From NCBI GenBank assembly GCA_020060385.1, contig JAGVAH010000032.1, positions 1 through 52,817 on the forward strand: 52,817 bases of DNA, read 5' to 3'. Shown here in pieces: positions 20,018 to 35,695 of this stretch. The stretch is from Syntrophobacterales bacterium. GTDB lineage: Bacteria > Desulfobacterota > Desulfobaccia > Desulfobaccales > 0-14-0-80-60-11. The position numbers were made by a program, and so were the translations under genes. Position 1 is the stretch's first letter, and every line of letters starts with the position of its first letter. Below the pieces are notes generated by a model. That model searched no databases. It was not told the origin of the DNA and saw nothing but the letters and a program-made list of their open reading frames with translations.

Positions 20018-20116
20018 CACCTCCCGCGCCGGGTTTGGGAAGGGGTGGGGTTTTATATGTTAAGAGCCGCAGGTCGGCTCTCCACCTTGCAAGGAAAAAA
20101 AGAGGAGATTTTACAC

Positions 20117-20647
20117 ATGAAACGCCAAATGATAACCAAGGGATTACCGGTGATGCTGATCTTGGCCCTGATCCTGGGCTTGAGCACCGCGGCCTGGGCC
20201 CAGCCCATGGGCCGCGGCCACGGCCGGGGCTGGATGCTGAACCTGACCCCGGAACAGGCGGGGCAACTCTTCGATCTCAAACAAAAATTTATGAATGACA
20301 CCGCGGAGCTACGCAAAAACATGTTGGTGAAGAGGACGGAGCTGAGGGCCCTGTGGAAGGCCGAGAACCCGGACGCCAAGCAGATCGTGGCTAAGCAGAA
20401 GGAATTGAGCGCCCTCCGGGAGCAGTTGCTGGAAAAGAGTGTAGCCTACCGGCTGCAGGCCCGGAAGATCTGCCCCCAGATCGGTCAAGGCTTTGGTAAA
20501 GGCCAGGGCAAGGGCGCTGGCATGGGTATGGGCGCCGGGTGTGGCATGGGCACGGGCGCCGGGTGCGGCATGGGCTCTGGCATGGGTATGGGCATGGCCA
20601 TGGCCGGTGATGGACCGGGCTTCGGGGGCATGGGCTGCTCCTGGTAG
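20117..20647 (+). CDS. Spy/CpxP-like periplasmic protein with Gly-Met-rich tail
   Basis: A 176-residue exported protein. Residues 1-28 form a signal peptide ending AAWA. The core (about 38-125) is helical, with NLTPEQAGQLFDLKQKF and the LRKN/LWKAENPDA repeats typical of the LTXXQ/Spy-type periplasmic chaperones and metal-stress proteins. The last 50 residues are low-complexity Gly/Met/Ala with cysteines in GCGMG units, a composition often linked to copper or other soft-metal binding. AGAGGAG about nine bases upstream of ATG 20117 sets the start, shorter than the open frame. Terminators on both sides make it a single-gene unit. Metal binding is inference from the tail. Confidence 0.8.
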   Translation: MKRQMITKGLPVMLILALILGLSTAAWAQPMGRGHGRGWMLNLTPEQAGQLFDLKQKFMNDTAELRKNMLVKRTELRALWKAENPDAKQIVAKQKELSALREQLLEKSVAYRLQARKICPQIGQGFGKGQGKGAGMGMGAGCGMGTGAGCGMGSGMGMGMAMAGDGPGFGGMGCSW

Positions 20648-20924: not shown

Positions 20925-22253
20925 ATGGGCAGCGACGGGGCCAAACCCAGAGTGGCTTTGATCAACCCCTCCTGGGAGACCCGGCACTGGAACCCCGGGG
21001 CCTTGCCCGATTTATATCCGCCCCTGGGTCTGGGCTGCGTGGCGGCAGTCCTGCGGGCTGACGCCTTTCCGGTGGAGATCATTGATATGCCGATTTTACG
21101 GCTGTCGGATCAGGACTTGATCCGGCATCTCCACCAGGCCAGACCCGGCATTATCGGCCTGACCGCGGTGACCTTGACCTATCCCCGGGCAGTGCACCTG
21201 GCTGGGCTGATCCGGCGGGAACTGCCGGGGATTCCCATCCTCGTGGGCGGGGTGCATGTGACTCTCAGCCCCGACGCGGTGCTCCAGGCAGATTGCTTCG
21301 ACTTTAGTGTCGCCGGAGAAGGTGAACTGGCGGCCTTGGCAATCTGCCGGGGGCTGGCCCGGGGGGAAGTGGCCCCCGAGGTCAACGGCGTGGGGTATCA
21401 TGGGCCAGGGAGACCCTATCGCCATCCCCCGGCGGATCTCGATCTCCGGGGATTGCCCCCCAGCGCCTATGACTTGTTTGAGATGGGAAAATATCAGCGC
21501 CTCTTTAAACGCATGGCTATTATGACCACCAGGGGTTGTCAGGGGCGCTGTATTTTTTGCGCCACGGGTTATGCCTGGCCCCGGGTGAAGTTTCTGCCCC
21601 TGGAGCGGTTGATGACGGAACTGCGATATCTGGTGCAAGATGCGGGCTTCCGGTACATCAACATTTTTGACAGCAGCTTCACCGCCGACCGGAGGCGGGT
21701 GCACCTGCTTTGCCACCTGATCCTCAAAGAGGGATTGGAGTTTCGCTGGCGCTGCTTTTCCCGGGCCGATGGGGTGGATTTAGGGCTCTTCCGGAAGATG
21801 CGGGCCGCGGGCTGCTCCCACGTCCTCTTCGGGGTGGAAACCAGTCACCTCCGCACCTTAAAACTGATCAAGAAGGGCACCTCCCCCCAACAAATGGTGG
21901 CGGCCTTTCGCCGGGCCCAAGAGGCGGGGTTGAAGCGGGTGGCCTATGCCATCATCGGCCTCCCCGGGGAGGGCAGGCAGGATATCCTGGACTCCCTGGA
22001 TTTTTTCGAGAAGTTGGAGGCGGAGCATTATGTGGTGTCGCCCATCAGTCTGATGCCCGGCACCCCCCTCCATGACCGCCGGGATGCCTACCAGATGATT
22101 CTTGGGGAAGACGACTATGGCAAGGGGGGCCAGGGGCAGGCCACGGCCAGCAATACCCTCCTCAGCGTGGCAGAAATCCAGGAGCTAGCAGATTATGCTT
22201 ACCGGCGGCTCAACCGGGGCCGCCAGGGTTACAACTGGATCGATGAGCATTAA
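20925..22253 (+). CDS. B12-binding-domain radical SAM protein
   Basis: A 442-residue protein with an N-terminal cobalamin-binding (Rossmann) domain (about 1-150, opening with ALINPSW and holding GITAVTL-like and VGGVHVTL segments) and a radical SAM barrel. The [4Fe-4S] cysteines are C205, C209 and C212 in CQGRCIFC, a canonical CX3CX2C. GVETS and GLPGEG-type motifs follow. Members of this class perform radical methylations or other B12-assisted chemistry; the substrate is unknown. GGAGG about ten bases before the ATG supports the start. It converges on the second radical SAM gene (25-base gap) and may belong to the same system. Confidence 0.87.
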   Translation: MGSDGAKPRVALINPSWETRHWNPGALPDLYPPLGLGCVAAVLRADAFPVEIIDMPILRLSDQDLIRHLHQARPGIIGLTAVTLTYPRAVHLAGLIRRELPGIPILVGGVHVTLSPDAVLQADCFDFSVAGEGELAALAICRGLARGEVAPEVNGVGYHGPGRPYRHPPADLDLRGLPPSAYDLFEMGKYQRLFKRMAIMTTRGCQGRCIFCATGYAWPRVKFLPLERLMTELRYLVQDAGFRYINIFDSSFTADRRRVHLLCHLILKEGLEFRWRCFSRADGVDLGLFRKMRAAGCSHVLFGVETSHLRTLKLIKKGTSPQQMVAAFRRAQEAGLKRVAYAIIGLPGEGRQDILDSLDFFEKLEAEHYVVSPISLMPGTPLHDRRDAYQMILGEDDYGKGGQGQATASNTLLSVAEIQELADYAYRRLNRGRQGYNWIDEH

Positions 22254-22278: not shown

Positions 22279-24387
22279 TTACAGGAAGGCCACGGCCCGA
22301 GTGTCACCTTCCGCGCCCAGCAGCAAACCCGCCTCATAAAGGTAATGCACCATCTCCCCGGCTTCGCCGGGGGAATAGTCATCCCCGGAGAGGTACTGCA
22401 ACCACTCCCTCAGGACCTTGAGGGGCACCGGTTCCAGGGCCGCCAACAGCAACAGGAGGATGCTGCCGTCCGCGGCCGCCAGCAACTCCGGCACTTCCAG
22501 GGTAGAGATGAGTAATCTGGTCCAATCTTGGGGGTAGCTGGGGCCTGCGGGGCGGATCATCAGGCCCTTGGCGCTCCGCAAGGCTGTGTTCTCCTCCAGG
22601 GGACCGGGATGGCGATGGGGGCGTTGGTTCCAGGAGATAAACACCTCCGGGGCATAGCGGCGGGTGTAGAGGGAGGTATGGGCATGGCCCAGTCCGCCCT
22701 TGAAAAAGAGATCCCGGTCGGGGTAGATCCGGTCCAGGGTTGCTTCCACTTCTTCAAAGAAGATGCTGGTCTTATCCGAATCGATGCCATCTTTCCGGGT
22801 GTAGCGGTACATCCATGACAGATCTTCCTCCGGGGGGCGGGGGTGGATCATCACCCCATACCGCCGGGGATGTTGAAAAATCCTGGACCCCTGTTCCAGG
22901 GCGAACTGGGCCAGGGAGACAAAGGGCACCCGCTCCCGGTTATCCCGGAGAAAAACCAGGGTGTCCACGGCCTCGTCCTCGGTTTCCCCGGGAAACCCTA
23001 TCTGGCACATGAGACTCACCGTAATCCCCACTTCCCGGCAGTGGGCAATGATGCGCTGCACCGTGGGGAAGTCCAGGCCTTTATGCATCAGTTGGGCCAC
23101 CCGGGGGGAGGCGGTCTCGAAGCCGAAACGGAGATGCCGGCAACCGCCAGCCGCCAGGTTTTTCAGGACCTTGCCGGTGAGGCCCCGGTCCAGACGGACC
23201 TCCGAATCCCAGGTGAAGGGCCACCCCTTAGCCTTGATGGCCCCGGCGATCTCGGCCAGGGCCCGGGCAGGCAGACTGTCGTTGGCCAGATTAAAGGCCT
23301 GGGCCCCTGTCTGGCGGTGGACGAAATCCAGGTCGGCCACGATCTTTTCCGGGGAGCGCTGCCGGTAGGCCCGGCCCCGGCGCTCCGGGCCCCAGGTGGC
23401 GGGGGAGATGGCGCAAAACGCGCATTTGCCGTAATAGCAACCCCGGGAGGAATTGATGAGCAAGGCCGGCTCCGGCCACCAATAGGAGTCCAGGGCCAGC
23501 CCCTGGTGGTCGGGGTGGGGCAGGAGGTCCAGATCCTCCGTGTGCATCCGGGGGGAGGTGGCGACTGCGCCGCCTTGCACTTCCATGACGTTGGGCGCGT
23601 CCGTGCCTGCCTGGCCCTGCTCCCAGGCTTGCAGCAAGGCCGGGAAGGCCGTCTCCCCTTCGAAGAGGATGCAGGCATCCACCTTCTTAAACAATTGGGG
23701 CGCCTGGCGCAGCCCGTCCTTGATGCGGGTGATGGTGGCTCCCCCGAAGACCACCTTGATGCCCGGGAACCACTCTTTGGCCCGGGCCGCCAACGTCCAG
23801 GCCGGGATCATCTGGGTTTGAAAGGTGACCGACACGGCCAGGACGTCCGGCCGGTGGGCCGCCAATCGGGGGCGGGCCACCTCTTCGCAGTAGTGGAGAA
23901 AGATGTTGGAGGCTTCGTCTTGGGCCGCGGCCAAGATTCCTGCAGAAGATAAGTAGGAATGGGCGGTTTTGAAACTCTGGAGGGAGATCTGCCCGGGATA
24001 GTAAGGGGCAGAGACGGCGGCCAGGGCTTTCTGCAGCAGACGGATGGCCCAGGCGTAGGCCCCGGGATCATAAAAGCGGGTGGGGTCCCGGAGAATTCCC
24101 AGGGCCTGGGAGACCGCGGCAGCCAGTTGGCCCCCGCCGGCCGCGGCCTGGCGCAGGACGGCCTCCTGGTTGGCGTCACGGAAAGCGGCGGCAGACAGCC
24201 GCTGTTCTACGGCCTGCAGGGAGGCCTCAATGGTTTGCCGCTGGCAGAGGTAGTTGAAGAAATCCACATTGAGGTCGGCCACCGCCACCTGCAGGCCGGC
24301 GCGCCGCCAGGCCCCCAAAAGAACGGCCAAAGAGGAATAGGGCTGGGCCGGGTCGGCCTGGGGCGGTTCCACCAAGAGCACTTGCAT
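22279..24387 (-). CDS. Large B12-type radical SAM protein, candidate RiPP/protein-modifying enzyme
   Basis: A 702-residue protein. An N-terminal cobalamin-binding-like domain (VLLVEPPQAD..., later VVFGGATIT and EGETAFPALL near residues 210-260) precedes a radical SAM barrel whose cysteines C317, C322 and C325 sit in CYYGKCAFC, a CX4CX2C spacing rather than the usual CX3CX2C. GFETAS and GFPGETEDEA follow; the last 100 residues could be a small winged-helix-like domain. By layout it resembles the B12 radical SAM enzymes that act on NHLP/Nif11-leader RiPP precursors. GGGAGG six bases upstream fixes the start at 24387; a longer frame from 24483 is possible. It follows the repeat protein gene directly, which makes that protein the prime substrate candidate. 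Confidence 0.83.
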   Translation of the reverse strand: MQVLLVEPPQADPAQPYSSLAVLLGAWRRAGLQVAVADLNVDFFNYLCQRQTIEASLQAVEQRLSAAAFRDANQEAVLRQAAAGGGQLAAAVSQALGILRDPTRFYDPGAYAWAIRLLQKALAAVSAPYYPGQISLQSFKTAHSYLSSAGILAAAQDEASNIFLHYCEEVARPRLAAHRPDVLAVSVTFQTQMIPAWTLAARAKEWFPGIKVVFGGATITRIKDGLRQAPQLFKKVDACILFEGETAFPALLQAWEQGQAGTDAPNVMEVQGGAVATSPRMHTEDLDLLPHPDHQGLALDSYWWPEPALLINSSRGCYYGKCAFCAISPATWGPERRGRAYRQRSPEKIVADLDFVHRQTGAQAFNLANDSLPARALAEIAGAIKAKGWPFTWDSEVRLDRGLTGKVLKNLAAGGCRHLRFGFETASPRVAQLMHKGLDFPTVQRIIAHCREVGITVSLMCQIGFPGETEDEAVDTLVFLRDNRERVPFVSLAQFALEQGSRIFQHPRRYGVMIHPRPPEEDLSWMYRYTRKDGIDSDKTSIFFEEVEATLDRIYPDRDLFFKGGLGHAHTSLYTRRYAPEVFISWNQRPHRHPGPLEENTALRSAKGLMIRPAGPSYPQDWTRLLISTLEVPELLAAADGSILLLLLAALEPVPLKVLREWLQYLSGDDYSPGEAGEMVHYLYEAGLLLGAEGDTRAVAFL

Positions 24388-24496
24388 GACGGCCTCCCAT
24401 GAGCAAGCCAGGGCAGGGAATAGAGACGCCCCCAGCCAAGCCGTCTTGCCGGCGGGGGCGTCCGGTTCCGCTCCCTTCAACATGGCGGAGATTTTT

Positions 24497-25105
24497 TCAG
24501 GTGGTCTCTTTTTCCAGCTTCGCGGCCAGGCGTTCCAGCTTCGGCTGCACCCGCTCCAACTTGGCCAGCACCCGCTCCACCTTGGGTTCGACCCTTTCCA
24601 GCTTTGGAGCCACCCTTTCCAGCTTTGGAGCCACCCGTTCCAGCTTGGGCGCGACCCGGTCCACCTTGGGAGCGACTTTCTCCAATTTGGGGGCGACTCT
24701 CTCCAGTTTAGGCGCGACCCGCTCCAATTTGGGGGTCACCCGCTCCAGTTTGGGGGCGATCCGTTCGAGCTTGGGGGCGATGCGCTCCAGTTTGGGGGTC
24801 ACCCGCTCCAGTTTGGGAGTGACCCGTTCCAGTTTGGGGGCCACCCGCTCCATCATGCTGGCGAAGCGCTCCCCTTCCGCCCCCCCCCGGCTGGAGGGCA
24901 GAAGTGAAGCCACCGCGGCTCCGCTGGCGCCCACCAGGGCCTCCAACCCCTGGCCTTGATGGAGCAGCCGCATATTTTTGAGGATCTCCTTTTCCTTGTC
25001 GGTGAGATCATAATCAACGCCCGGATCGTAATCCTCTTTTTTCAGTTTCTCGAGAAAATCTCGATCCACCAGAGCCCGGATCAGAACTCGTTCCAATTCC
25101 TTCAT
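24497..25105 (-). CDS. NHLP/Os1348-like leader protein with 16 heptad repeats (candidate modified precursor)
   Basis: A 202-residue protein. Residues 1-45 (start MKELERVLIRALVDRDF, then DYDLTDKEKEIL) resemble the nitrile-hydratase-like leader peptides (NHLP clan, Os1348 type) that guide RiPP enzymes. A linker with AVASLLPSSRGGAEG follows. Residues 86-197 are 16 seven-residue units of consensus E-R-V-x-P-K-L; Val and Leu alternate 4/3 as in a heptad, yet Pro occurs in nearly every unit. The protein ends EKETT. GAGGAGG just upstream sets the ATG at 25105; the open frame extends further. It lies between a PqqD-like/radical SAM set and the large radical SAM gene in one operon. It could be a repetitive RiPP core or a structural coiled-coil protein; I favour a modified substrate but cannot prove it. 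Confidence 0.7.
   Translation of the reverse strand: MKELERVLIRALVDRDFLEKLKKEDYDPGVDYDLTDKEKEILKNMRLLHQGQGLEALVGASGAAVASLLPSSRGGAEGERFASMMERVAPKLERVTPKLERVTPKLERIAPKLERIAPKLERVTPKLERVAPKLERVAPKLEKVAPKVDRVAPKLERVAPKLERVAPKLERVEPKVERVLAKLERVQPKLERLAAKLEKETT
24515..24850 (-). repeat. Sixteen 21-bp coding tandem repeats
   Basis: 336 bases encode 16 heptads (E/D-R/K-V/I-x-P-K-L/V). Units differ at many synonymous positions, so the repeat is conserved as protein rather than as recently slipped DNA. The last units (VEPKV, VLAKL, VQPKL, LAAKL) are the most degenerate. Confidence 0.9.
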
Positions 25106-25254
25106 AATTTCCTCCTCCCCTGCTGATCCCCTGGAGTTACGGCACCTTGGACCCACAGGACCCCATCTCCCCGGAGAATCACAGGAAAGTCCGGCCAACC
25201 TGACCGCTGCGCCTTAATAAATATTACCCGGAGCAGGAAGTCATTTACATTTGC

Positions 25255-25316
25255 TGTCATTCTGAGGCCCCGGAGGGACCGAAGAATCTAGACCCTTCGC
25301 TTCGCTCAGGGTGACA
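25255..25316. repeat. Dispersed intergenic palindrome of the 'CATTCTGAG...GAAGAATC' type
   Basis: TGTCATTCTGAG at the left pairs imperfectly with CTCAGGGTGACA at the right, with GAAGAATC and CTTCGCTTCGC between. This pattern recurs in intergenic DNA of many bacteria. It sits in the 268-base gap between the 67-residue protein gene and the repeat-protein gene; nothing else was recognised in that gap. Confidence 0.6.
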
Positions 25317-25373
25317 AAAAAGCAATTTATTTGGTGCTCCTGGTAATAAAACCTTCTGCTTTCCGGCAGGTTC

Positions 25374-25577
25374 TTACCCCGCTTCAATGATGTCCACGAT
25401 ATTGAATTGAATCTTGATCTGGCCTTCCCCTTTCTCATAGTCCGCCAGCAATTGCTTCACGTTTTTGCCGGTCAGCTTCTCCACGTCAATGGCCTTGAAC
25501 CTTATAATGGCTCCGAGATGCGAGGGTTTCCCGTCGGAGCCCACCATCAGAATGGCAGGGCGTTCATAGATGGGCAT
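25374..25577 (-). CDS. Small protein of unknown family, paralogue of its upstream neighbour (67 aa)
   Basis: A 67-residue protein beginning MPIYERPAILMVGSDGKP and ending FNIVDIIEAG. It aligns along its whole length with the 79-residue protein encoded 18 bases upstream (about 70% identity by eye), lacking only that protein's last 12 residues. No signal peptide, cysteine or known motif is seen. GGGAGG six bases before the ATG makes it a convincing gene. As part of an operon with radical SAM, PqqD-like and NHLP-like genes it may be a second substrate, a scaffold or a partner protein. No family is recognised. Confidence 0.75.
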   Translation of the reverse strand: MPIYERPAILMVGSDGKPSHLGAIIRFKAIDVEKLTGKNVKQLLADYEKGEGQIKIQFNIVDIIEAG

Positions 25578-25595
25578 GGTCTTTCCTCCCTAAAA

Positions 25596-25835
25596 TTATT
25601 GGCCCTTGGATGCTAATTTGACGGCTTTTTCCGTGCCGGCTTCCACGATGTCCACGATATTGAACTGGATGGTGAGTTTGCCTTCCCCCTTTTCATAGGT
25701 TGCCAGCAATTCCTTAACGCTCTTGCCGGTGAGTTCGACCACGTCGAGGGCCTTGAATCTGATAATGGCTCCCAGATGGGCAGGTTTCCCATCGGCGCCC
25801 ACCAATAGAATAGCGGGGCGTTCATAAACGGGCAT
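25596..25835 (-). CDS. Small protein of unknown family (79 aa)
   Basis: A 79-residue protein, MPVYERPAILLVGADGKPAH at the start, FNIVDIVEAG near residue 66, then a Lys/Ala tail TEKAVKLASKGQ not present in its 67-residue paralogue. The shared core alternates hydrophobic beta-like stretches (PAILLVG, GAIIRFKAL, LTIQFNIVDIV) with one helical segment (SVKELLATYEKG), suggesting a compact domain rather than an unstructured precursor. AGGAGG seven bases upstream of the ATG and a 14-base overlap with the PqqD-like gene indicate coupled translation. Function not recognised. Confidence 0.75.
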   Translation of the reverse strand: MPVYERPAILLVGADGKPAHLGAIIRFKALDVVELTGKSVKELLATYEKGEGKLTIQFNIVDIVEAGTEKAVKLASKGQ

Positions 25836-26151
25836 CGGGCTCTCCTCCTTTCGTGTCTAAGGGTTTTTTTAGTTCAATGGCCTCCAGCTGGATTAATAGG
25901 GCCAAATATTCCGCCACATCCTCCAAGATTTTCTGGGCCGGCACCTGATATTTCTTGGCCAGATGCTGGAGGATATCCATGGTGGAATAATGGCTGTCAC
26001 AAAGGATTAAGATGTCGTAAGCCGTGGCATTGAGTTCAAAGAAGATATTTTTCTTGGAATGGAAGAGATGGCGCTTCCCTGCCGATTCCTGCAGAATGAG
26101 ATAAGGATGACGCACCGGCCGGTCATCCAGGCTGAGAACGACCTTCTCCAT
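25822..26151 (-). CDS. PqqD-like peptide-recognition (RRE) protein
   Basis: A 109-residue protein resembling PqqD, the peptide chaperone that delivers precursors to radical SAM maturases. The typical pattern is visible: FFELNATAYDILILCDSHYS (the Phe/Asn/Thr-Ala motif), then a helix-turn-helix-like DILQHLAKKYQV and DVAEYLALLIQLEAIEL. A charged C-terminal tail follows. The ATG overlaps the stop of the radical SAM gene as TGATG, so the start at 26151 is preferred over the longer frame; GAGGAG lies just upstream. Coupling to a radical SAM gene supports an RRE role; not every PqqD-like protein binds a peptide, so this is inference. Confidence 0.8.
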   Translation of the reverse strand: MEKVVLSLDDRPVRHPYLILQESAGKRHLFHSKKNIFFELNATAYDILILCDSHYSTMDILQHLAKKYQVPAQKILEDVAEYLALLIQLEAIELKKPLDTKGGEPDARL

Positions 26152-27452
26152 CACTCCTCCTCTCCCACCCCCGCCGCGAAACAGGCTTCCATCCACAATT
26201 GATTGAGCTGGGGGGCAGTTAAATGCCTGGTCTCGATAACGCTGGGAGCATTGCCGATATGCCGCTCCGGGTCGTCGATGACGAAGCGCAGGCCGTAATC
26301 TCCAAGTTTTTCGTAAAGTTCAGACCCCGGATCGGGATGCAAAAGGTTCCAAACTACTTCGTGGGGCCGCAGGCGGTGGGTAACGAAGGCGATATTTTCC
26401 CGGATGTCCTGCTCCGTTTCCCAGGGCAGCCCCATGAGCATGGCGCAGGTGGTCTCGATACCCACCTCCCGACAGAGGCGCACCGCTTCCAGACTGTCCT
26501 CCAGCCGGGAGCGCTTGCGCAGGAGGTCCAGGGACTTCTGGCTGCCGGATTCCACGCCGATGAACAGGCCGCTGCAGCCGGAGTCCCGCATGGCCTGCAG
26601 CAGGGGCCGGGTGAGGGAGTCGGCCCTCACCGAACAGCGCCAGTCCAATTGATAATTCCCGGCATGGAGGGCCTGGCAGATCTCAAAGACCCGGGGATTA
26701 TCAAAGGAGAAGTTGTCGTCCCCGAAGACCATGGTCTTGGCGCCATACCGGTCCACCAAATGGTCGATTTCGGCCATGAGGTGGTCTATGCTGCGGACCC
26801 GCCAGCGATGGCCCCAAAAAGGAGAGGAGGAACAAAAGATACACCGGTAGGGGCAGCCCCGGGAAGTGACCACCAGGAATTCCCGCAAGCGGGCATAGAT
26901 GGGCATGGTCTCCAGTAAGTCGTAGGCCGGCAGCGGCAGGCTGTCCAGGTCGGTGATATAGGCCCGGGGAGGGTTAACCTGAATGGCGCCGCTTTCATCC
27001 TTATAGCTGATGCCGGCGATTCCCCCGAGGCCGTCGGCTCCGGCCTCCAGATGGGCCAGCACCTCCAGCACCGTGCGTTCCCCTTCGTTTCTGACCACAA
27101 TGTCCACCGGATATCGTTCCAGGGTGCTCCGGTCAGCAAAGGTGGGATGCATGCCCCCCATGAGAACGGCAACCTGGGGGTCCAGCTCCTTGACCAACCC
27201 GGCGATGGCGGCCCCCTTGGTGAAGGAGGCGCTGATGGCGCTGATGCCCACCACCTGGGGGCGAAAGGCTTTGAGCTTTCTCCTCAGCGCCGCCAAAGTC
27301 ATGTTGGACACGGTCATATCCACCAGGATTACTTCATGGCCGGCCTCTCTGAGCACCGCACCCAGATAGCAGATGGACAGGGGAGGGAACTGGAGTTCCG
27401 GTGCGTCCTCCAGGGTATAGGGCATGGGGGGGACTAGCAGCGCTACCTTCAT
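26151..27452 (-). CDS. B12-binding-domain radical SAM protein
   Basis: A 433-residue protein and the first gene of the leftward operon. The N-terminal cobalamin-binding domain (about 1-140) has VALLVPPMPYTL, PPLSICYLGAVLREAGHEV and VLMGGMHPTF. The radical SAM cluster ligands are C200, C204 and C207 in CPYRCIFC (CX3CX2C). Further motifs are VFGDDNFSFD, GVESGSQ and MGLPWET. It is a BchE/P-methylase-type layout. Its stop overlaps the start of the PqqD-like gene. The reaction is unknown; a peptide or the small neighbouring proteins are possible substrates. GAAGG lies a few bases before the ATG. Confidence 0.87.
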   Translation of the reverse strand: MKVALLVPPMPYTLEDAPELQFPPLSICYLGAVLREAGHEVILVDMTVSNMTLAALRRKLKAFRPQVVGISAISASFTKGAAIAGLVKELDPQVAVLMGGMHPTFADRSTLERYPVDIVVRNEGERTVLEVLAHLEAGADGLGGIAGISYKDESGAIQVNPPRAYITDLDSLPLPAYDLLETMPIYARLREFLVVTSRGCPYRCIFCSSSPFWGHRWRVRSIDHLMAEIDHLVDRYGAKTMVFGDDNFSFDNPRVFEICQALHAGNYQLDWRCSVRADSLTRPLLQAMRDSGCSGLFIGVESGSQKSLDLLRKRSRLEDSLEAVRLCREVGIETTCAMLMGLPWETEQDIRENIAFVTHRLRPHEVVWNLLHPDPGSELYEKLGDYGLRFVIDDPERHIGNAPSVIETRHLTAPQLNQLWMEACFAAGVGEEE

Positions 27453-27805: not shown

Positions 27806-29158
27806 ATGAAAAATTCCCAGGAGCTGCGGTCTAGACTGAGGACTTTTAAGGGCAGGGGGGAGCGGTATGCGCCGGCCACCTCTGGTCCCTTCCCGAAGAC
27901 CGTGCATGAGGCCGCGTCTACGGATGCCTTGCGTTCCTGGCCCCCAAGCCCGGTCTTTGTGCAGGCCCAAGGCTGCCGCCTCTTCTCCCGCAGCGGCAAG
28001 GCCTACTTTGACGGCACCGGCGGCAGCGGCGCCGTCAATCTGGGACACCAGCACCCCCGGGTAGTCGCCGCCATCATACAGCAGTGCCAAAAACTCACCC
28101 ATACCGGCTGGAATCTGCAGTCCCAGGTGCGCACCGAATTGGTCCGGGAGCTGGGCGCCTTTGCGCCTTACCAGGACTGCGCGGTCCTCTTCACGGTTAC
28201 GGGCTCTGAGGCCATCGAGGCCGCTTTAAAGGTGGCCCGGGCTTACACGGGGCGGGACACGGTCATTGCCTTTGACAGGTCCTATCATGGCAAAACGGGC
28301 GGGTCCCTGCTGGTCACCTGGCGGGAGCGGTTCAGAAAGTATTCCCCGGTGGCCGCGGAGACCGTCAGCTTCGCGCCTTTTCCCCTTTTACACCTGCCCG
28401 GTCCGGCAGGGCAACCGGCATACTGCCTGGAGGCCCTGCAAAACCTGGTGGCGGCAGCCTGGTCCGCCGGTTGTCCTCCTGCCGCCCTGATTCTGGAGCC
28501 CATCCAGGCTGCCGAAGGCATCCTCCCGGGGGGCCGGGATTTCCTGGCGGGCGTCCTCCAGGTGGCCCGGAAATGCGGCAGCCTGGTGATCTTTGATGAG
28601 ATCTACACCGGCTTCGGCCGCTGCGGCACTCCCTTTTATGGCAGCCGGGAAGGGTTGACCCCGGACTTGCTGGTGGTGGGCAAATCCCTGGGCAACGGCC
28701 TGCCCGTCTCCGCGGTCCTGGGCCCTGCCCGGGTGCTAAATGTCCTGCCCCCCGGCTTCCATACCTCCACCTTCGCGGGCCATCCCCTGGCTTGCCGGGC
28801 GGCCCTGGCAGTGCTGGAGGTGATGGAGCAAGAAAAGCCGTGGCAGCAAGCAGCCGCACTGGGTCTGCGGGTTTTCCAATTCCTGCAGGACCAGGAGAAC
28901 CGGAGCGAGGTCATTGCCGGGGTGCGGGGGGAAGGGATGATGCTCGGTTTTGACTGCGTCGATCAAGGGGGCCAGCCCTCAGCCAGTCTCTCCCGGGCCT
29001 TGGTGGAAGAGGCCCTCGCCCGGGGCCTGGTCCTCCGGTGCGGGGGATTTACTGGAGCTACGGTCAAGCTTACCCCGCCCCTGATCATTCCCGCAGAGGA
29101 TATGGACTTTCTGTTGGCGGCCTTGGCCCAAGCCATCGCCGCCATTAGGAAAAGGTGA
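27806..29158 (+). CDS. Class III PLP-dependent aminotransferase
   Basis: A 450-residue fold-type I aminotransferase of class III (omega-aminotransferase/glutamate-semialdehyde aminomutase group). The PLP lysine is K293 in VVGKSLGNGLP; FDEIYTGFGRCG contains the ring-binding Asp; TVTGSEAIEAALKVAR and HGKTGG bind phosphate. It would transfer an amino group to or from a ketone, aldehyde or omega-amine. It opens a seven-gene rightward operon of biosynthetic enzymes, so its substrate is likely an intermediate of that pathway. No strong ribosome site precedes the ATG; the N-terminal 40 residues are consistent with the family. Confidence 0.88.
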   Translation: MKNSQELRSRLRTFKGRGERYAPATSGPFPKTVHEAASTDALRSWPPSPVFVQAQGCRLFSRSGKAYFDGTGGSGAVNLGHQHPRVVAAIIQQCQKLTHTGWNLQSQVRTELVRELGAFAPYQDCAVLFTVTGSEAIEAALKVARAYTGRDTVIAFDRSYHGKTGGSLLVTWRERFRKYSPVAAETVSFAPFPLLHLPGPAGQPAYCLEALQNLVAAAWSAGCPPAALILEPIQAAEGILPGGRDFLAGVLQVARKCGSLVIFDEIYTGFGRCGTPFYGSREGLTPDLLVVGKSLGNGLPVSAVLGPARVLNVLPPGFHTSTFAGHPLACRAALAVLEVMEQEKPWQQAAALGLRVFQFLQDQENRSEVIAGVRGEGMMLGFDCVDQGGQPSASLSRALVEEALARGLVLRCGGFTGATVKLTPPLIIPAEDMDFLLAALAQAIAAIRKR

Positions 29159-29210
29159 AGGGAGAAGAAGGCCGCCTTTCCGGGACCTTGGAGAGCGGAG
29201 CAGAATCAAG

Positions 29211-30419
29211 ATGCCCTTTAGTGACCTCGCAAAATATGTCCTGGACCAGGAGCTCTGCGCCCATTGCGGCGCCTGCCTGGTGGCCTGTCCGGAAGACCTC
29301 ATCGACTTCCATGATCTTTTCCCGGGGCTGGTGGAGAGAGCCGGCTTTTCCTCTTGCGGCGCCTGCAGGGACTGTCTGGATACCTGCCCGGGGCTTGATC
29401 CGGCCACGGCCGGGTCGGAGGCGCGCCTCTTTGGCAGGCACCGGCGACAGCAGGAGAGGTGGCTGGGGATATACCGCCAGGCCGTGGCGGCCTGCGCCGC
29501 CGCCCCCGCGGTCTTTGAGGCCTCCGCCAGCGGCGGCAGCGTCACCGCCTTGTTGGCCGCGGCCATGAAGTGTCTGCACCTGGACTGCGTCCTGGTGGCG
29601 GGCAGAGACGGGGCCCGGCCCTGGAGGGCCGCGACCGCGGCGGTGTTTACCCCCGACGCCTTGATCCGGTTTTCCCAATCCACTTATCAGATCTTTCCCC
29701 ATCTGGGCTTGATCAAGACCTTGTTGCGGCAGCACCCCTATTTGCGGCTGGGACTGACGGCCCTTCCCTGCCAGACCCAGGCCCTCCGCAAGCTGCAAGG
29801 CCTGGAGACCCCCTGGGGAGAGATTATCCGCCAACAGGTGGTGTTTATCTTGGAAATTGCCTGCAGTTCCAATACCCTGCCCCTGGGCACGGAAACCCTG
29901 ATCACCGATCTGGCCCGCATCCCCCTCAAAGAAGTCCAGGATATCCGCTACCGGCAAGGCCCCTATCCGGGGCAGATCGCCATCACCACCAAGCAGGGGG
30001 AGACGGTAACCGTGCCTTTTTGGCAGGCAGTAAGACATTTTAAGGACTTCAAAAACCACCGCTGTCTCTCCTGCGGCGATTGGATGTCGGGGCTCTCCGA
30101 CCTCAGCGTCTGCGACGGCGAGCCCAATATCTTCAAATCCAGCCAGGACGCGGCTTTCCCCCCCAAGTTCGGCATGGTTCTGGTGCGGACGAAGACCGGG
30201 GCCAGGGTCCTGGATTGGGCCAAGTGGACGGGGACCCTGAAAACCTGGCCCCACCCCTTAAGGGAGGATAATCTGGGCTTGCGGCGCAAGCGCAATCGCC
30301 GAGGCTATTATGAAAAGTTGGGAATACCCATACCCTTGGGTCCGATTCCGGGGTACCGGGAGATCTTCGAGCCGGTTCCGGATGAGTCCCTGATCCCCAA
30401 AATAGGGATTTATGACTGA
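29211..30419 (+). CDS. FrhB/FpoF-like coenzyme F420-type oxidoreductase with two ferredoxin clusters
   Basis: A 402-residue protein of the coenzyme F420 hydrogenase/dehydrogenase beta-subunit family. The N-terminus carries two [4Fe-4S] ferredoxin motifs, C16/C19/C22/C26 and C49/C52/C55/C59 (both CxxCxxCxxxCP). SASGGSVTALLAAAM near residue 100 and CLSCGDWMSGLSDLSVCD are typical of FrhB domains, which bind flavin. Family members reduce or oxidise diverse substrates with ferredoxin or F420; many non-methanogens use ferredoxin. Here it probably supplies a reductive step in the pathway. The stop overlaps the next start (ATGACTGA). Confidence 0.87.
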   Translation: MPFSDLAKYVLDQELCAHCGACLVACPEDLIDFHDLFPGLVERAGFSSCGACRDCLDTCPGLDPATAGSEARLFGRHRRQQERWLGIYRQAVAACAAAPAVFEASASGGSVTALLAAAMKCLHLDCVLVAGRDGARPWRAATAAVFTPDALIRFSQSTYQIFPHLGLIKTLLRQHPYLRLGLTALPCQTQALRKLQGLETPWGEIIRQQVVFILEIACSSNTLPLGTETLITDLARIPLKEVQDIRYRQGPYPGQIAITTKQGETVTVPFWQAVRHFKDFKNHRCLSCGDWMSGLSDLSVCDGEPNIFKSSQDAAFPPKFGMVLVRTKTGARVLDWAKWTGTLKTWPHPLREDNLGLRRKRNRRGYYEKLGIPIPLGPIPGYREIFEPVPDESLIPKIGIYD

Positions 30420-31200
30420 GTCATTGGTTGACAAGTCCGGCCCCCCCGGGAGACGGCTGGGTTTAATGAATGAGGTTGACCTGGGACGGCTGCCTGAGCA
30501 TTTGGTGGCCCTGCTGCCCCTGGGGAGCATGGAGCCCCATGCCCACCTGCCCCTGGCCACCGACACCCTCATTGCCGCCGCCATTTTGGAGCGGGTCGCG
30601 GCCGCCACCCCCCATACCTGCTTGTTTCCCGCCATCCCCGTGGGATTCTTGTTTAAATATGCCGGCTGGCCCGGGGCCATCGGGGTGGGCCAGCAGATCT
30701 TAACGGGCCTGATTGGGGATATTTGCCGGGGCCTGAGCCACCTGGGGCTGCGCAAGCTCTTTATCATGTCCGGGCATGATGAGAATCGGGAGTCGGCCTT
30801 GCAGGCTCTCCGGGAGGCCCACAGGGAGTCGGGCACCCTGGCCGTTTATTGCGATTGGCTGGAGTTGGGGCTGCCGCTGCTGGCCCGAATCTCTGCCTCC
30901 CGCAATGAGGGCCATGCCAGCGAAATCCAAACCTCGGTGTTTCTCCACCTGTTCCCCCATCTGCCGGTGGACCTGCCCCGGCCCGCGCTCCAGCCGTTGG
31001 GGCCGCCCCCCCTGGGAGCCGACGATCTCTTCGCCCCCCCGGAGCAGGGCACCTGGGTCCGGGCCGTGCCCCGGCACCAGGGCCGGTCCTGCACCGGCGA
31101 CCCGGGCCAGGCTACTCCGGAAAAGGGGAAAATGGTGGTGGAGGCCATTGTCCAGCAGGCCCAGAAAATCATCGAAGGTTTGCGGGCGTTACCGGATTAG
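30412..31200 (+). CDS. Creatininase-family metal-dependent amidohydrolase
   Basis: A 262-residue creatininase-family protein. Metal ligands are readable: E41 and H43 in GSMEPHAHLP, D51 in ATDT, H122 in SGHDEN, and E171 in EGHASEIQTS; CTGDPGQATPEKG is the family's C-terminal motif. Members hydrolyse cyclic or linear amides (creatinine, formamidopyrimidines) or trim peptides, as MftE does in mycofactocin synthesis. Its start overlaps the FrhB-like gene by 8 bases, so translation is coupled. With a PqqD-like/radical SAM operon next door, a peptidase role is possible, but a small-molecule amidase is equally consistent. Confidence 0.88.
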   Translation: MTESLVDKSGPPGRRLGLMNEVDLGRLPEHLVALLPLGSMEPHAHLPLATDTLIAAAILERVAAATPHTCLFPAIPVGFLFKYAGWPGAIGVGQQILTGLIGDICRGLSHLGLRKLFIMSGHDENRESALQALREAHRESGTLAVYCDWLELGLPLLARISASRNEGHASEIQTSVFLHLFPHLPVDLPRPALQPLGPPPLGADDLFAPPEQGTWVRAVPRHQGRSCTGDPGQATPEKGKMVVEAIVQQAQKIIEGLRALPD

Positions 31201-31215
31201 AGGCCCTGATCCCCC

Positions 31216-32370
31216 ATGATGACCGGATTGGAGCTGCATCAACATCTGTTTGACCAGTTGTCCCGGCGGGGGGCGGAGGGCCGGGTTTACCGCCGCCTCC
31301 TGGAAGAAATCCTGGGGTTCCCGGTGGAAAATGTCCTCATTTCCACCGCCGAACACACGGCCCCTTTCAACCGGGCCCATACGGTGAGCTTTCTTTTGCC
31401 CCAGCTCATTCTGCAGCAGGCCGGGCTAAAGCCCCGGGCGCCCATCCTGATCCTGGCGGCCTCCCTGATTCCCCTGGACAATGAGCATTATCCCCGGGGC
31501 TTTCTCCTGCCCCAGGGTCGCTTCAACCTGTTCCCCTGCCGCCAGAGGAAGAAAAGCCCGGCCCTCCTGCCCCCGGCCAAGGCCTTGGAGAAGACGGGCG
31601 CCCCGGCTTTCTTCAGCCGCTATCCCTGGCTGCGCCGGGTTTTCCAGGAGGAGCGCAGCCATACCAGTTATGCCCGCCAGATCAGCGGCTGCATGGAAGG
31701 GATGGCCCAGCAGTGGTTCCCGGAGGCCCCGCCGGGCAACGTACGGGTGCGCCCCCTGGAAGAGGTGGCCCGGCAAATGCTGATCAGGCTTCTGGAAGCC
31801 GACGACGCCTTACTCGGGCAACTTCTCTTTGATAACAGGATACGCGGCCTGGTGGCCCGGGATCTGTTGGGGATCTTTTGCGCCTGGGGCCAAACCCAGG
31901 GAAGTTTTTATTTTTGGGGGGCCCAGGATGCCGGGGTCGCCCGGCTCCGGGAGGAAAACGGCCACCTGCTGGGCGCCTCCTGGCGGATCCCCCTGGAGAA
32001 AGACAGCCTCCTGGATTTTTTGCGGGCCGGGAGACTCTGGCCCGGGGTCTTTCTCTCCCTGCTGATGGTGTCCTTCTTCCCCAACCTGCCCATCTCGGGG
32101 GGCCCGAAGCAGCTCCATTATTACCGTTTAATGATCTGGGCCGCCAACCGCCTGGACTGTGCGCCCCGGGAGGAGCGGCTGGCCGGATATGGCTATATGA
32201 TTCTGGACTTTACCGGCATGAGGCTGGGACGGGAGAATGGCGGGCTTCTGCCCAGTTGCGCGCCCGGCCTGGCGCTCGCCGACGCCCAACTGGACCCGGA
32301 CTGGCTGGCGGCGGAACTCTCCCGGCTCCCTCTCCTGCCTTTCCCGGAGGTGATACCTGGCTTGAGGTGA
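31216..32370 (+). CDS. Unrecognised 384-aa protein of the biosynthetic operon
   Basis: I do not recognise the family. The protein is soluble-looking apart from one hydrophobic stretch (VFLSLLMVSFFPNLP, near residue 285). Notable elements are STAEHTAPFNRAHTVSFLLP (residues about 43-62), LDNEHYPRGFLLPQGRFN, EERSHTSYARQISG and ISGGPKQLHYYRLM. The His-rich polar motifs near residues 47, 56 and 150 could be catalytic or metal-binding. It lies 15 bases after the creatininase gene and 60 before the EPSP-synthase-like gene, so it is probably an enzyme of the same pathway. ATGs at 31216 and 31219 are adjacent; the start is uncertain only by one codon. Confidence 0.8.
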   Translation: MMTGLELHQHLFDQLSRRGAEGRVYRRLLEEILGFPVENVLISTAEHTAPFNRAHTVSFLLPQLILQQAGLKPRAPILILAASLIPLDNEHYPRGFLLPQGRFNLFPCRQRKKSPALLPPAKALEKTGAPAFFSRYPWLRRVFQEERSHTSYARQISGCMEGMAQQWFPEAPPGNVRVRPLEEVARQMLIRLLEADDALLGQLLFDNRIRGLVARDLLGIFCAWGQTQGSFYFWGAQDAGVARLREENGHLLGASWRIPLEKDSLLDFLRAGRLWPGVFLSLLMVSFFPNLPISGGPKQLHYYRLMIWAANRLDCAPREERLAGYGYMILDFTGMRLGRENGGLLPSCAPGLALADAQLDPDWLAAELSRLPLLPFPEVIPGLR

Positions 32371-32430
32371 ATCCGGGTTTATGGCTGCTGGCGAAAATGG
32401 TCCGGCTCCCTGGACCGGAGAGATTGGGTA

Positions 32431-33768
32431 ATGCGGGATCTGTTGGTCTCCGGCGGCGATTTTAGGGCTCTGGAGGATAGGTCCGTAAACATCCCCGGGG
32501 ATAAATCCATCTCCCACCGGGTCCTGCTGCTGGCGGCCATCCTGCCCGGGCCGACGCGCATCAACGGCTTGAATGAGGGCGGCGCGGTGCAGGCGCTCAA
32601 GCCGGCTCTCCAGACATTGGGGGTCCGTCTCGAGGAAAAAGACGGGGCCTTGACCGTGACCCCCCCCGCAGGCGGCCTCCGGCCAGAGGGGGTTTACCGG
32701 TTCAACCTGGGGTCATCCAGCACCGCCGCCCGTCTCCTGCTGGGACTCTTAAGCGGGCTGGGAATCCCGGCCGTTATCGACGGGGACGCCAGCCTGCGGG
32801 CCCGGCCCATGGATTGGGTGGTGACGCCGCTCCGCCAGTTGGGAGCCAACCTCAAATATTTGGGTATCCCCGGCCGGGTCCCGGTTCTTATTGAAAATGG
32901 CAGACTGCGCCCCGGCCAGGTCCGGCTGGAGGTGGTCAGCGCCCAGGCCAGCTCCGCTATCCTCTTCGGGGCTTTTGCCGCGGGCCAGGAGGTGGAGATC
33001 TCCCTGGTGGCCCCCTCCCGGGACCATACCACCCGGCTTCTGCGCCATCTGGGAGTGAAGGTCGAGGAAACCCGGGAAAGCATCAAAATCGTGGACGTGA
33101 ATTACCCCCCCTTGCCGGAATATCAGGTTCCCGGGGATCCATCCGCGGCCGCGTTTCTGGCCGGGGCCTGCGTCTGCCAGGGTGGGCCGGCGAAGCTGAC
33201 GGTGGAGCAGGTCTGCCTTAACCCCACCCGCCTGGGCTTTTTTGAACTCCTGGGGGAATGCGGGGTGGCCATCGATTATGCCGATATTGCCGAAAGATAT
33301 GGAGAGCCGGTGGGGAACCTCAGGGTCGGCGGTTTTCCCCCCGGGGTCAGGCCCTTTCACGTGGACCAGGTGGGGCGCACCCATGCCATGATCGATGAAA
33401 TTCCTCTGGCTGCGGCTCTGGCCACCTTGATTCCCGGGACCTCCTCCATCTCTCAGGCCGGGGAGTTGGCTTTTAAGGAAACCGACCGTCTCCAATCTAC
33501 CCGCAATATGCTGCGGGCCTTCGGGGCTGAGGTGGAAGCCACCCCCGATTCCCTCCAGGTGAGGGGCGGTTTGCCCCTGAAGGCGGGGGTGGTGCCGAGC
33601 TTCGGCGACCATCGCCTGGCCATGGCCGCGGCGGCCCTGGCCTGCGCCCTCCCTGGCCGCACCAGGATCCTGGGAGGGGAGTGCTACCAGACATCTTTTC
33701 CGGAATTTTCCGAGAAAATGCGTTATCTTGGCTTTGGGGTGCATCTTTCCGAGGGGGCGGCAGGATAA
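32431..33768 (+). CDS. EPSP-synthase-like enolpyruvyl transferase, probably specialised
   Basis: A 445-residue homologue of AroA (5-enolpyruvylshikimate-3-phosphate synthase). Conserved pieces: PGDKSISHR at 22-30 (K25, R30), STAAR with R101, R125 in ARPM, SAQASSA, the PGDPSAAAF block, DEIPLAAALA, FKETDRL and GDHRLAM. Departures: the acidic D/E-D pair after the first strand is replaced by EGG at 49-51, and the GNAGT-type loop reads LGSSST. No other shikimate gene is nearby and it sits among aminotransferase, PhzF-like and dehydrogenase genes, so a secondary-metabolite enolpyruvyl transfer is more likely than chorismate synthesis. That cannot be settled here; it could be the cell's only AroA. 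GGAGA lies eight bases before the ATG. Confidence 0.85.
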   Translation: MRDLLVSGGDFRALEDRSVNIPGDKSISHRVLLLAAILPGPTRINGLNEGGAVQALKPALQTLGVRLEEKDGALTVTPPAGGLRPEGVYRFNLGSSSTAARLLLGLLSGLGIPAVIDGDASLRARPMDWVVTPLRQLGANLKYLGIPGRVPVLIENGRLRPGQVRLEVVSAQASSAILFGAFAAGQEVEISLVAPSRDHTTRLLRHLGVKVEETRESIKIVDVNYPPLPEYQVPGDPSAAAFLAGACVCQGGPAKLTVEQVCLNPTRLGFFELLGECGVAIDYADIAERYGEPVGNLRVGGFPPGVRPFHVDQVGRTHAMIDEIPLAAALATLIPGTSSISQAGELAFKETDRLQSTRNMLRAFGAEVEATPDSLQVRGGLPLKAGVVPSFGDHRLAMAAAALACALPGRTRILGGECYQTSFPEFSEKMRYLGFGVHLSEGAAG

Positions 33769-34673
33769 TGGCGGCTGGCGTAGACCACGAATTATGGCAG
33801 TTGGCGGTTTTTTGCGCCGCGGGGGCCGTGGGCAATCCCACCGGGGTGGTGTTTCCCGGGCCGGGGCTGGGCCCTGAAGATTATCTCAGACTTGCGGCCT
33901 GGTTGGGTTATCCGGATACCGTCTTTTTAAGGCCCGGGCCGGACCTGAGCCATTGGCGGGCCCACTCCTTTTCGCCGGCGGGCGAGCTCTCTTTTTGTAT
34001 TCAGACGCTGCTGGCCGCCGACGCGGTGATTCGCCGCAAATGGCCGCGGCTGATAAAGGAAACCCTCTCCTTGACCACGCCAAGCCGCCTGGCCACCGTG
34101 GAGCGCCTCCCCGGAACCATGCCCGCCCTGGGGTGGGTGAAAATATCCCAGGCAGAAATCCGGGTGCGGCCCGGGGGGCCACCGCTGCACTCCATCTTTA
34201 GGATGGACCTTAAAGGAGAATTTCCGGAGTTGATCATCGACAGCGGCCGTTCCCGGGTCTACCGGCGGCTTCCGCACCTTTCGGACCTGGAAGAGGTCTG
34301 GCTTCCTCCGGACCAGGTCCTGGCCTATTGCCAGGACTCCCAGGTCCATGGGATCTGTCTTTTTTCCCTCATGGGCCACCGCACTATGGCCACCCGGGTC
34401 TTCACCACTTCCCTGGATGGCCGGGAAGATGTGGCCACGGGCGGGGCGGTTCTGGGCTTGCTAGCCTATCTAGCCAGGCAGGACCCGGGCATTACCCGGG
34501 GCGGTGATTTCTGGACCATCCACCAGGGCCAGGGGCCCCCGCACCGGCGGGGCACCCTCTTCATCAAGGAGTTGCCCGAGGAGCAGGCCGTAGCCGTGGG
34601 CGGCTTAACCCGGGTGGTGGCCCAGGGGGTCCTGGTGAAGGTGGAGGATTTGCTGGAGAAAGGCAGGAGATGA
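33768..34673 (+). CDS. PhzF-like isomerase-fold protein
   Basis: A 301-residue protein resembling the PhzF/diaminopimelate-epimerase fold. The N-terminus AVFCAAGAVGNPTGVVFP corresponds to the family's FT..p.GNPaaVv pattern; DTVFL at 50-54 aligns with the ET.F motif that holds the catalytic Glu45 of PhzF, giving Asp here; SPAGELSFCIQTLLAA aligns with the TP..E..CGHAT block, with GH changed to IQ. A second half with VATGGAVLGLLAYL and FIKELPEEQAVAVGG follows. It probably acts on a small cyclic or amino-acid intermediate. TAATG overlaps the AroA-like stop, so this start is preferred over the longer frame. Confidence 0.7.
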   Translation: MAAGVDHELWQLAVFCAAGAVGNPTGVVFPGPGLGPEDYLRLAAWLGYPDTVFLRPGPDLSHWRAHSFSPAGELSFCIQTLLAADAVIRRKWPRLIKETLSLTTPSRLATVERLPGTMPALGWVKISQAEIRVRPGGPPLHSIFRMDLKGEFPELIIDSGRSRVYRRLPHLSDLEEVWLPPDQVLAYCQDSQVHGICLFSLMGHRTMATRVFTTSLDGREDVATGGAVLGLLAYLARQDPGITRGGDFWTIHQGQGPPHRRGTLFIKELPEEQAVAVGGLTRVVAQGVLVKVEDLLEKGRR

Positions 34674-35695
34674 AAGGAGTGGTCGCTGATGTCCGGGGCC
34701 AAGCGCGGGTGCAGGACCTGCCTGCACCCCAGCCCGCCCCGGGCCAGGTGCTGATCAAGGCCGCGTGCAGTTTGATCAGCCCCGGCACGGAGCTTTTTTA
34801 TCTCGAACAGGCGGCCCTCAACGGAGAGCCCCGCCCCCTGGGTTACTGCTCCAGCGGTTATGTGGCGGGCCTGGGGGCAGGGGTGGCAGGTTTGGCCGCG
34901 GGGGACCGGGTCATCGCCATGGGCTGGGATTATGCCGTGCATGCCGAGCAAATTTGCGTGCCCCATCGGCTCTGTGTGAAGATCCCGGAAAAAGTGCCCT
35001 TTGACCGGGCGGTCTTTGCCAACCTGGCGGCCACCTGCCTCCACGCGGTCCACCGGGCCCGCCTGGGGCAAGAAGACCGGGTACTGGTGCTGGGGGCAGG
35101 ATTGGTGGGCCAACTCCTGGCCCAAATCGCCCGGGGCGGGGCCGCCCTGGTGGCGGTGGCGGATTATGTGCCGGCCCGTCTCCAGGCGGCCAAACTGTCC
35201 GGAGCCGACGCGGTCTTCAACAGCTCCCAGGCCTCCTGGGTAAGCCAAGGGATGCAAACCACCAAGGGGAGGGGATTCAACACCATCTTCCTCTGTTGCC
35301 GCGGCGAAGCCACGTCAAGTGTGGCCCAGTGCCTCGATACCCTGACCCAGGCCCCGGATGGGCAGCGCCGGGGCGTCCTGGTGGCGGTGGGCCGGTTCCG
35401 GGCCCAGGTGGAGTTTAGTGTGGAACTGGGCAACATCGATATCCGCTATGCCGCCCGCTGCGGCAGCGGTTACCGGGATGACGAGTATGTCCACGGCCGC
35501 CGGGATTACCCCCCTCCCCCCGGGGAGGGGGCGGTGGGCGACAATCTGCGCCAGTGTCTGGCCCTCATTGCCTCCGGCCGGATTAATCTTGAGCATCTCC
35601 ACACCCACCGGCTGGCCCTGGCCGCGGCCCCTGGGGCCTATGACCTGTTGCGCCCCCCTGGACCAGCCCTGGGCGTGACCCTGCATTACGACTGA
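34670..35695 (+). CDS. BchC-like medium-chain dehydrogenase/reductase
   Basis: A 341-residue MDR-superfamily protein. LISPGTELFYLE near residue 40, LGYCSSGYVAGLGAGV (57-72) and GDRVIAM resemble the BchC / zinc-independent branch; VLGAGLVGQLLAQIA (about 139-153) is the dinucleotide site. The structural zinc cysteines are absent. It would oxidise an alcohol or reduce a ketone with NAD(P)H. The start overlaps the PhzF-like stop as ATGA with AGGCAGGAG upstream. It is the last gene of the operon, 12 bases from the convergent caspase-fold gene. Confidence 0.85.
   Translation: MKGVVADVRGQARVQDLPAPQPAPGQVLIKAACSLISPGTELFYLEQAALNGEPRPLGYCSSGYVAGLGAGVAGLAAGDRVIAMGWDYAVHAEQICVPHRLCVKIPEKVPFDRAVFANLAATCLHAVHRARLGQEDRVLVLGAGLVGQLLAQIARGGAALVAVADYVPARLQAAKLSGADAVFNSSQASWVSQGMQTTKGRGFNTIFLCCRGEATSSVAQCLDTLTQAPDGQRRGVLVAVGRFRAQVEFSVELGNIDIRYAARCGSGYRDDEYVHGRRDYPPPPGEGAVGDNLRQCLALIASGRINLEHLHTHRLALAAAPGAYDLLRPPGPALGVTLHYD

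Follow-up and report, generated by a model that had tools for sequence, protein, structure and literature searches.

Among the described systems of ribosomally synthesized and post-translationally modified peptides (RiPPs), the closest to the locus presented here are the proteusins, the aminopyruvatide pathway and the Os1348 family. Proteusins such as polytheonamide have an NHLP leader and the enzymes PoyB and PoyC. PoyC is a B12-binding radical S-adenosylmethionine (B12-rSAM) enzyme that performs iterative C-methylation of valine on a proteusin precursor, and its cluster motif is CX7CX2C (PMC11285071). ApyD is the B12-rSAM enzyme of the aminopyruvatide RiPP pathway, which depends on a RiPP recognition element (RRE) (PMC10635010), and Os1348 is a small antibiotic-related protein of Pseudomonas sp. 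Os17 (PMC7726476). Here we describe a row of leftward genes in a 52,817-nucleotide stretch of DNA (contig JAGVAH010000032.1, assembly GCA_020060385.1; hereafter the window) from a Syntrophobacterales bacterium of the phylum Desulfobacterota. The row encodes two B12-rSAM enzymes (rSAM433 and rSAM702), a PqqD-family protein, two small paralogous proteins and a 202-residue protein with 16 heptad repeats. Our tentative proposal is that this is a RiPP-like protein-modification locus of two modules, in which the heptad protein would likely be the substrate of rSAM702, and the small proteins the likely partners of rSAM433 and PqqD. The features of the locus are as follows.

26151–27452, minus strand: rSAM433, B12-binding radical SAM protein of 433 amino acids (aa), motif CX3CX2C (Pfam and NCBIfam scans)
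25822–26151, minus strand: PqqD-family (RRE-type) protein, 109 aa, its ATG overlapping the stop codon of rSAM433 (TGATG)
25596–25835, minus strand: small protein 1, 79 aa, no known family, 14-bp overlap with the end of the PqqD gene
25374–25577, minus strand: small protein 2, 67 aa, paralogue of small protein 1 (79% identical)
25293–25313, minus strand: dispersed element resembling a repetitive extragenic palindrome (REP-like), inside the 268-bp gap between the two modules
24497–25105, minus strand: repeat protein, 202 aa, with a strong ribosome-binding site (RBS), GGAGGAGG
24965–25105, minus strand: Os1348/NHLP-clan helical domain of the repeat protein, residues 1–47, not specific to RiPP precursors
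24515–24850, minus strand: 16 heptads E-R-V-x-P-K-L, residues 86–197 (repeat finder and unit alignment)
22279–24387, minus strand: rSAM702, B12-binding radical SAM protein of 702 aa, motif CX4CX2C (Pfam and NCBIfam scans)

Once the leader-like domain of the repeat protein has been controlled for (see below), the supports left for the proposal are the RRE-like PqqD protein, two B12-rSAM enzymes whose nearest families are RiPP families, and a second RiPP-like cluster in this genome with the same rSAM subfamily. A preliminary description of this DNA had claimed these leftward genes, and all of the open reading frames (ORFs) are present on the minus strand at the coordinates above; domain matches agree that two of the products are B12-rSAM proteins and that another is a genuine member of the PqqD family. 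Both enzymes pass the Pfam cut-offs for B12-binding (32.1 bits) and Radical_SAM (29.5 bits), with 81.9 and 85.6 bits for rSAM433 and 36.1 and 59.2 bits for rSAM702, and the 109-aa protein passes that of PqqD (PF05402; 43.3 bits, cut-off 23.4). The nearest NCBIfam model of rSAM433, and its best named match, is ApyD (E 6e-68), although the score is 229.8 bits against a cut-off of 750, there is no MNIO, P450 or ApyA-like precursor here, and the RRE is a separate PqqD protein. No PqqD gene was found in the 1.5-kb flanks of rSAM433 relatives by single-sequence phmmer, which is a weak test.

For rSAM702, the nearest NCBIfam model is TIGR03975, a RiPP C-methyltransferase (E 1.6e-42; 145.8 bits, cut-off 281.85 not reached). 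The locus resembles the proteusins in that a TIGR03975-like B12-rSAM enzyme stands beside a protein with an NHLP-clan domain, and repeated modification along a single chain would be a further parallel. However, the cluster motif of rSAM702, CYYGKCAFC, is CX4CX2C, a form common to its aligned relatives, and not the CX7CX2C of PoyC (PMC11285071). In addition, the core here consists of 112 residues of heptads without Cys or Ser, the leader-like domain lies under its cut-off and is not RiPP-specific, and no protease, exporter or epimerase was seen among the neighbours scanned. A PqqD-like domain suspected by eye at the C-terminus of rSAM702 gained no support from model matches (no Pfam or NCBIfam match; hhalign probability 1.4%), and the PADLOC PDC-M51A match of the rSAM proteins was set aside as generic radical-SAM similarity.

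Two tandem paralogues of rSAM702 (33–36% identity) are encoded on contig C92 of the same genome, where a RiPP-like cluster (L010:7245-12903) comprises a 65-aa peptide ending in GDGGGGGVGIA, a SPASM radical SAM protein nearest to nif11-peptide maturases, and these two paralogues, B12-rSAM proteins of ~700 aa. In another genome (G101), a RiPP-like cluster (L105:2548-7488) combines a B12-rSAM protein of the rSAM702 family (631 aa) with a PqqD-like protein, a SPASM rSAM protein and a 54-aa peptide that has a Cys near its C-terminus. Relatives of rSAM702 were found in 17 of 395 genomes of the phylum (E <= 1e-50, about 30% identity). Judged by sequence and context, the subfamily is compatible with peptide modification, not diagnostic of it.

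The preliminary description had placed all of these genes in one operon. Their order on a common strand stands, while a single transcription unit is uncertain given the 268-bp gap, with its REP-like element, between the genes for small protein 2 and the repeat protein. The genes for rSAM433, PqqD and small proteins 1 and 2 form a tight overlapping unit (module A), in which both small genes are preceded by a strong RBS, and the repeat gene is adjacent to the rSAM702 gene, 109 bp away on the same strand (module B). The REP-like 21-mer (CACCCTGAGCGAAGCGAAGGG) has 14 dispersed copies in the genome at <= 2 mismatches, compared with 0 for a reversed control; it splits the row into the two modules, and the cluster may be two transcription units. 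This spacing and gap also fit an explanation that we regard as unlikely, namely that module A alone is of RiPP type. In that case rSAM433 and PqqD would modify the small paralogues as the true precursors, and the heptad protein and rSAM702 would be a separate unit with another job. Duplicated small genes beside an RRE would suit precursor peptides, yet the small proteins are conserved along their full length (79% identity, pN/pS 0.20), which differs from a conserved leader followed by a variable core. Moreover, they match no precursor family in Pfam, NCBIfam and further library scans, and the structure that AlphaFold2 predicts for them has low confidence (pLDDT 59), with no Foldseek match at E <= 0.001. 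Past the stop codon of small protein 2 (25359–25376) the frame gives EPAGK, which weakly resembles the C-terminal tail of small protein 1 (TEKAVKLASKGQ), as though a stop codon had cost small protein 2 its own tail.

The heptads themselves are well defined. Unit alignment confirms the 16 E-R-V-x-P-K-L units counted in the preliminary description, and Tandem Repeats Finder independently detects a 21/42/63-bp array at 24512–24852. The 16 units run in phase through residues 86–197 with the general pattern E/D R/K V/I/L x P/A K L/V (E15/D1, R15/K1, V13/I2/L1, x = A10/T3/E/L/Q, P14/A2, K16, L14/V2), Lys being invariant in 16/16 and Pro present in 14/16. In pairwise comparisons between units, pS is 0.63 and pN is 0.15, a ratio of 0.23 (bootstrap 0.14–0.34). 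The amino acids of the heptads are held by purifying selection while the DNA has drifted. Since the units differ far more at synonymous than at non-synonymous sites, the array is genuinely coding and is neither an artefact of slippage nor freshly produced by it.

In coiled-coil register the positions read a = Leu, b = Glu, c = Arg, d = Val, e = Ala/Thr, f = Pro and g = Lys, with Leu/Val at a/d in 16 in-phase heptads, the canonical hydrophobic pattern. Proline apart, the sequence pattern looks like that of ordinary coiled coils, and the main rival to our proposal, which we consider somewhat unlikely, is that the heptad protein stays unmodified and has a structural or scaffolding role. It would consist of an Os1348-clan docking domain and a long amphipathic helix, curved by outer-face prolines at regular spacing, and would hold or organise partners; its place beside the rSAM genes would be due to chance or to an accessory role. 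Among solved structures, the repeat region comes nearest in sequence to designed coiled-coil barrels and to the coiled coils of chemoreceptors, and the heptads share a = Leu, d = Val/Ile, e = Ala, g = Lys and b = Glu with designed and natural heptad coiled coils such as CC-Hex-KgEb and sc-apCC-4. Similar heptads of the type LDRVETRL, without proline, occur in ordinary proteins of related genomes of the phylum, with no rSAM neighbour in the stretches examined. The V/I/L, E/D and R/K exchanges are structure-like, and the nearest relatives of the N-terminal domain are found on signalling proteins. AlphaFold2 predicts one helix over residues 76–201, albeit with low confidence (pLDDT roughly 60–78) and from a single sequence without alignment. 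Against the scaffold stands the proline at f in 14/16 heptads, a residue that normal coiled coils avoid: 14 Pro in 112 residues here, versus 0–1 per 110 in the three heptad proteins used for comparison. Matches of the repeat region to RHA1_ro05818_N, SMC, tape-measure, ZorA and similar entries (Pfam, NCBIfam, PHROG and PADLOC) were discarded as coiled-coil or low-complexity matches.

The N-terminal domain of the heptad protein had seemed to settle the matter; the preliminary description likened it to an NHLP/Os1348 leader. Residues 1–47 match NF038399 (Os1348 family) with 23.1 bits (E 5.8e-5; cut-off 40, not reached) and PF14407 with 23.0 bits (E 9.6e-5; cut-off 48, not reached); these are the only relevant families matched, and both belong to the NHLP clan. 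The resemblance is statistically real, though under the curated cut-offs, and these matches assign the domain to the Os1348/NHLP clan. Os1348 itself differs in being an 85-aa stand-alone protein with other neighbours, and NF038399 also matches response-regulator and redox-protein domains in this phylum. As a marker of a RiPP leader, the domain fails. When the phylum was searched with PF14407, C-termini of response regulators and nitrile-hydratase-like proteins scored level with small peptides, and in pairwise comparison the domain scores 70–72 against two response-regulator C-termini versus <= 50 against the NHLP-type peptides examined. Response regulators were the only other matches when the domain was searched by phmmer against ~4,000 ORFs of fetched loci. 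A profile built from these sequences, which is biased to the response-regulator type and which the repeat protein matches by construction, finds the domain in 18/148 genomes, mostly at or near the C-terminus of response regulators, molybdopterin-oxidoreductase proteins and GCV_H-domain proteins; the GCV_H-domain carriers adjoin ferredoxin-type redox genes. NF038399, which is independent of that profile, gives 14–36 bits for domains of the response-regulator, redox and GCV_H types versus 23 for the repeat protein; those on response regulators and molybdopterin oxidoreductases score 21–36 bits. Since the same domain sits on non-RiPP proteins at similar scores, the "leader" is not a RiPP marker. 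On these comparisons it is an Os1348/NHLP-clan helical module used in this phylum mainly in non-RiPP proteins, and it may still act as a docking handle. Between the domain and the heptads lie Gly-Gly (residues 74–75) and Gly-Ala (residues 59–60), where the surrounding motif is not convincing when compared with a known leader cleavage motif (PMC2887384).

As for the surroundings, a third B12-binding radical SAM protein (442 aa; 20925–22253, plus strand) is convergent with the rSAM702 gene, and a 200-aa protein with a C-terminus rich in Met/Gly/Ala (GMGMGAGCGMGTGAGCGMG...) is encoded at 20045–20647 on the plus strand. On the other side, a diverging gene row (27806–35695, plus strand) encodes a class III aminotransferase, a ferredoxin-FrhB-like protein, a creatininase-family protein whose nearest relative is mycofactocin MftE, a 384-aa orphan, an EPSP synthase, a PhzF-like protein and an alcohol dehydrogenase; it looks like a biosynthetic cluster. 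It is improbable, in our estimate, that the B12-rSAM enzymes act on small molecules, such as lipids or a metabolite of this cluster, with the small and repeat proteins as unrelated accessories. The gene content of the row, as listed above, would suit such a role, and the small-molecule families BchE, HpnJ and HpnR also match both enzymes, but the best matches of both are RiPP families, and a genuine PqqD-family protein is coupled to rSAM433.

Several observations weigh against a RiPP-like locus with the heptad protein as substrate. Besides the presence of the Os1348/NHLP-clan domain on response regulators, molybdopterin oxidoreductases and GCV_H-like proteins, the heptad core is without Cys, Ser and aromatic residues, and V/I/L exchange at its hydrophobic positions is easier to reconcile with a structural role than with residue-specific chemistry. 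A Pfam scan of neighbouring proteins revealed no peptidase or exporter, a C39 peptidase/ABC exporter included; one may be encoded elsewhere in the genome, and any cleavage or export of the product is conjectural. Most rSAM702 relatives in the phylum have no recognisable precursor nearby (e.g., they adjoin oligopeptide ABC transporters and ATP-grasp genes), contexts that were judged from ORF sequences, with model scans for some only. Conserved co-occurrence was also not seen, as the genomes searched yielded no orthologous locus. The small proteins were confined to this one genome among 395 of the phylum, and the repeat protein had only generic heptad matches, and no orthologue, in 99 relatives. 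Scans of a genome-contig collection with rSAM702 and with the small-protein alignment, and tblastn of plasmids with small protein 1, returned no relatives. The absence of orthologues removes the best test of association. Literature titles and abstracts returned for repeat-core rSAM RiPPs held no matching system.

We nevertheless favour, tentatively, the two-module protein-modification locus, and our confidence is limited because the seemingly clinching leader feature lacks specificity. In module B, rSAM702 would perform repeated radical modification, most probably C-methylation, on the heptads of the adjacent 202-aa protein, with the Os1348/NHLP-clan domain serving as docking handle and the 16 uniform heptads offering a periodic substrate with a constant V-x-P-K-L context. 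In module A, rSAM433 and the translationally coupled PqqD-like RRE protein would act on the two small paralogous proteins, or might also act on the heptad protein. The iterative valine C-methylation by PoyC and the joint use of an RRE and a B12-rSAM enzyme in the ApyD pathway are precedents. A more specific version, which we hold to be doubtful, is that up to 16 of the proline-phased heptads are each modified at the same position by one B12-rSAM enzyme, which docks through a domain that signalling and redox proteins also carry; this would yield a multiply C-methylated (or crosslinked) protein, not a small peptide. The substrate role of the heptad protein is plausible but unproven.

In this phylum, response regulators, molybdopterin oxidoreductases and GCV_H-like proteins recurrently carry the Os1348/NHLP-clan domain at a terminus. 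We observed such terminal domains in loci L108, L110, L112, L113, L114 and L116, and also in L119, L120, L126, L127 and L129, their carriers often standing beside NuoE-like or ferredoxin-type redox genes; they possibly represent an undescribed accessory domain family. Given this recurrent non-RiPP use, weak matches to NHLP leader models alone should not signal RiPP precursors. If modification does proceed repeat by repeat along the heptad protein, this B12-rSAM substrate would differ from the RiPP cores known so far and would supply proteins in which many C-methylated residues stand in fixed register.

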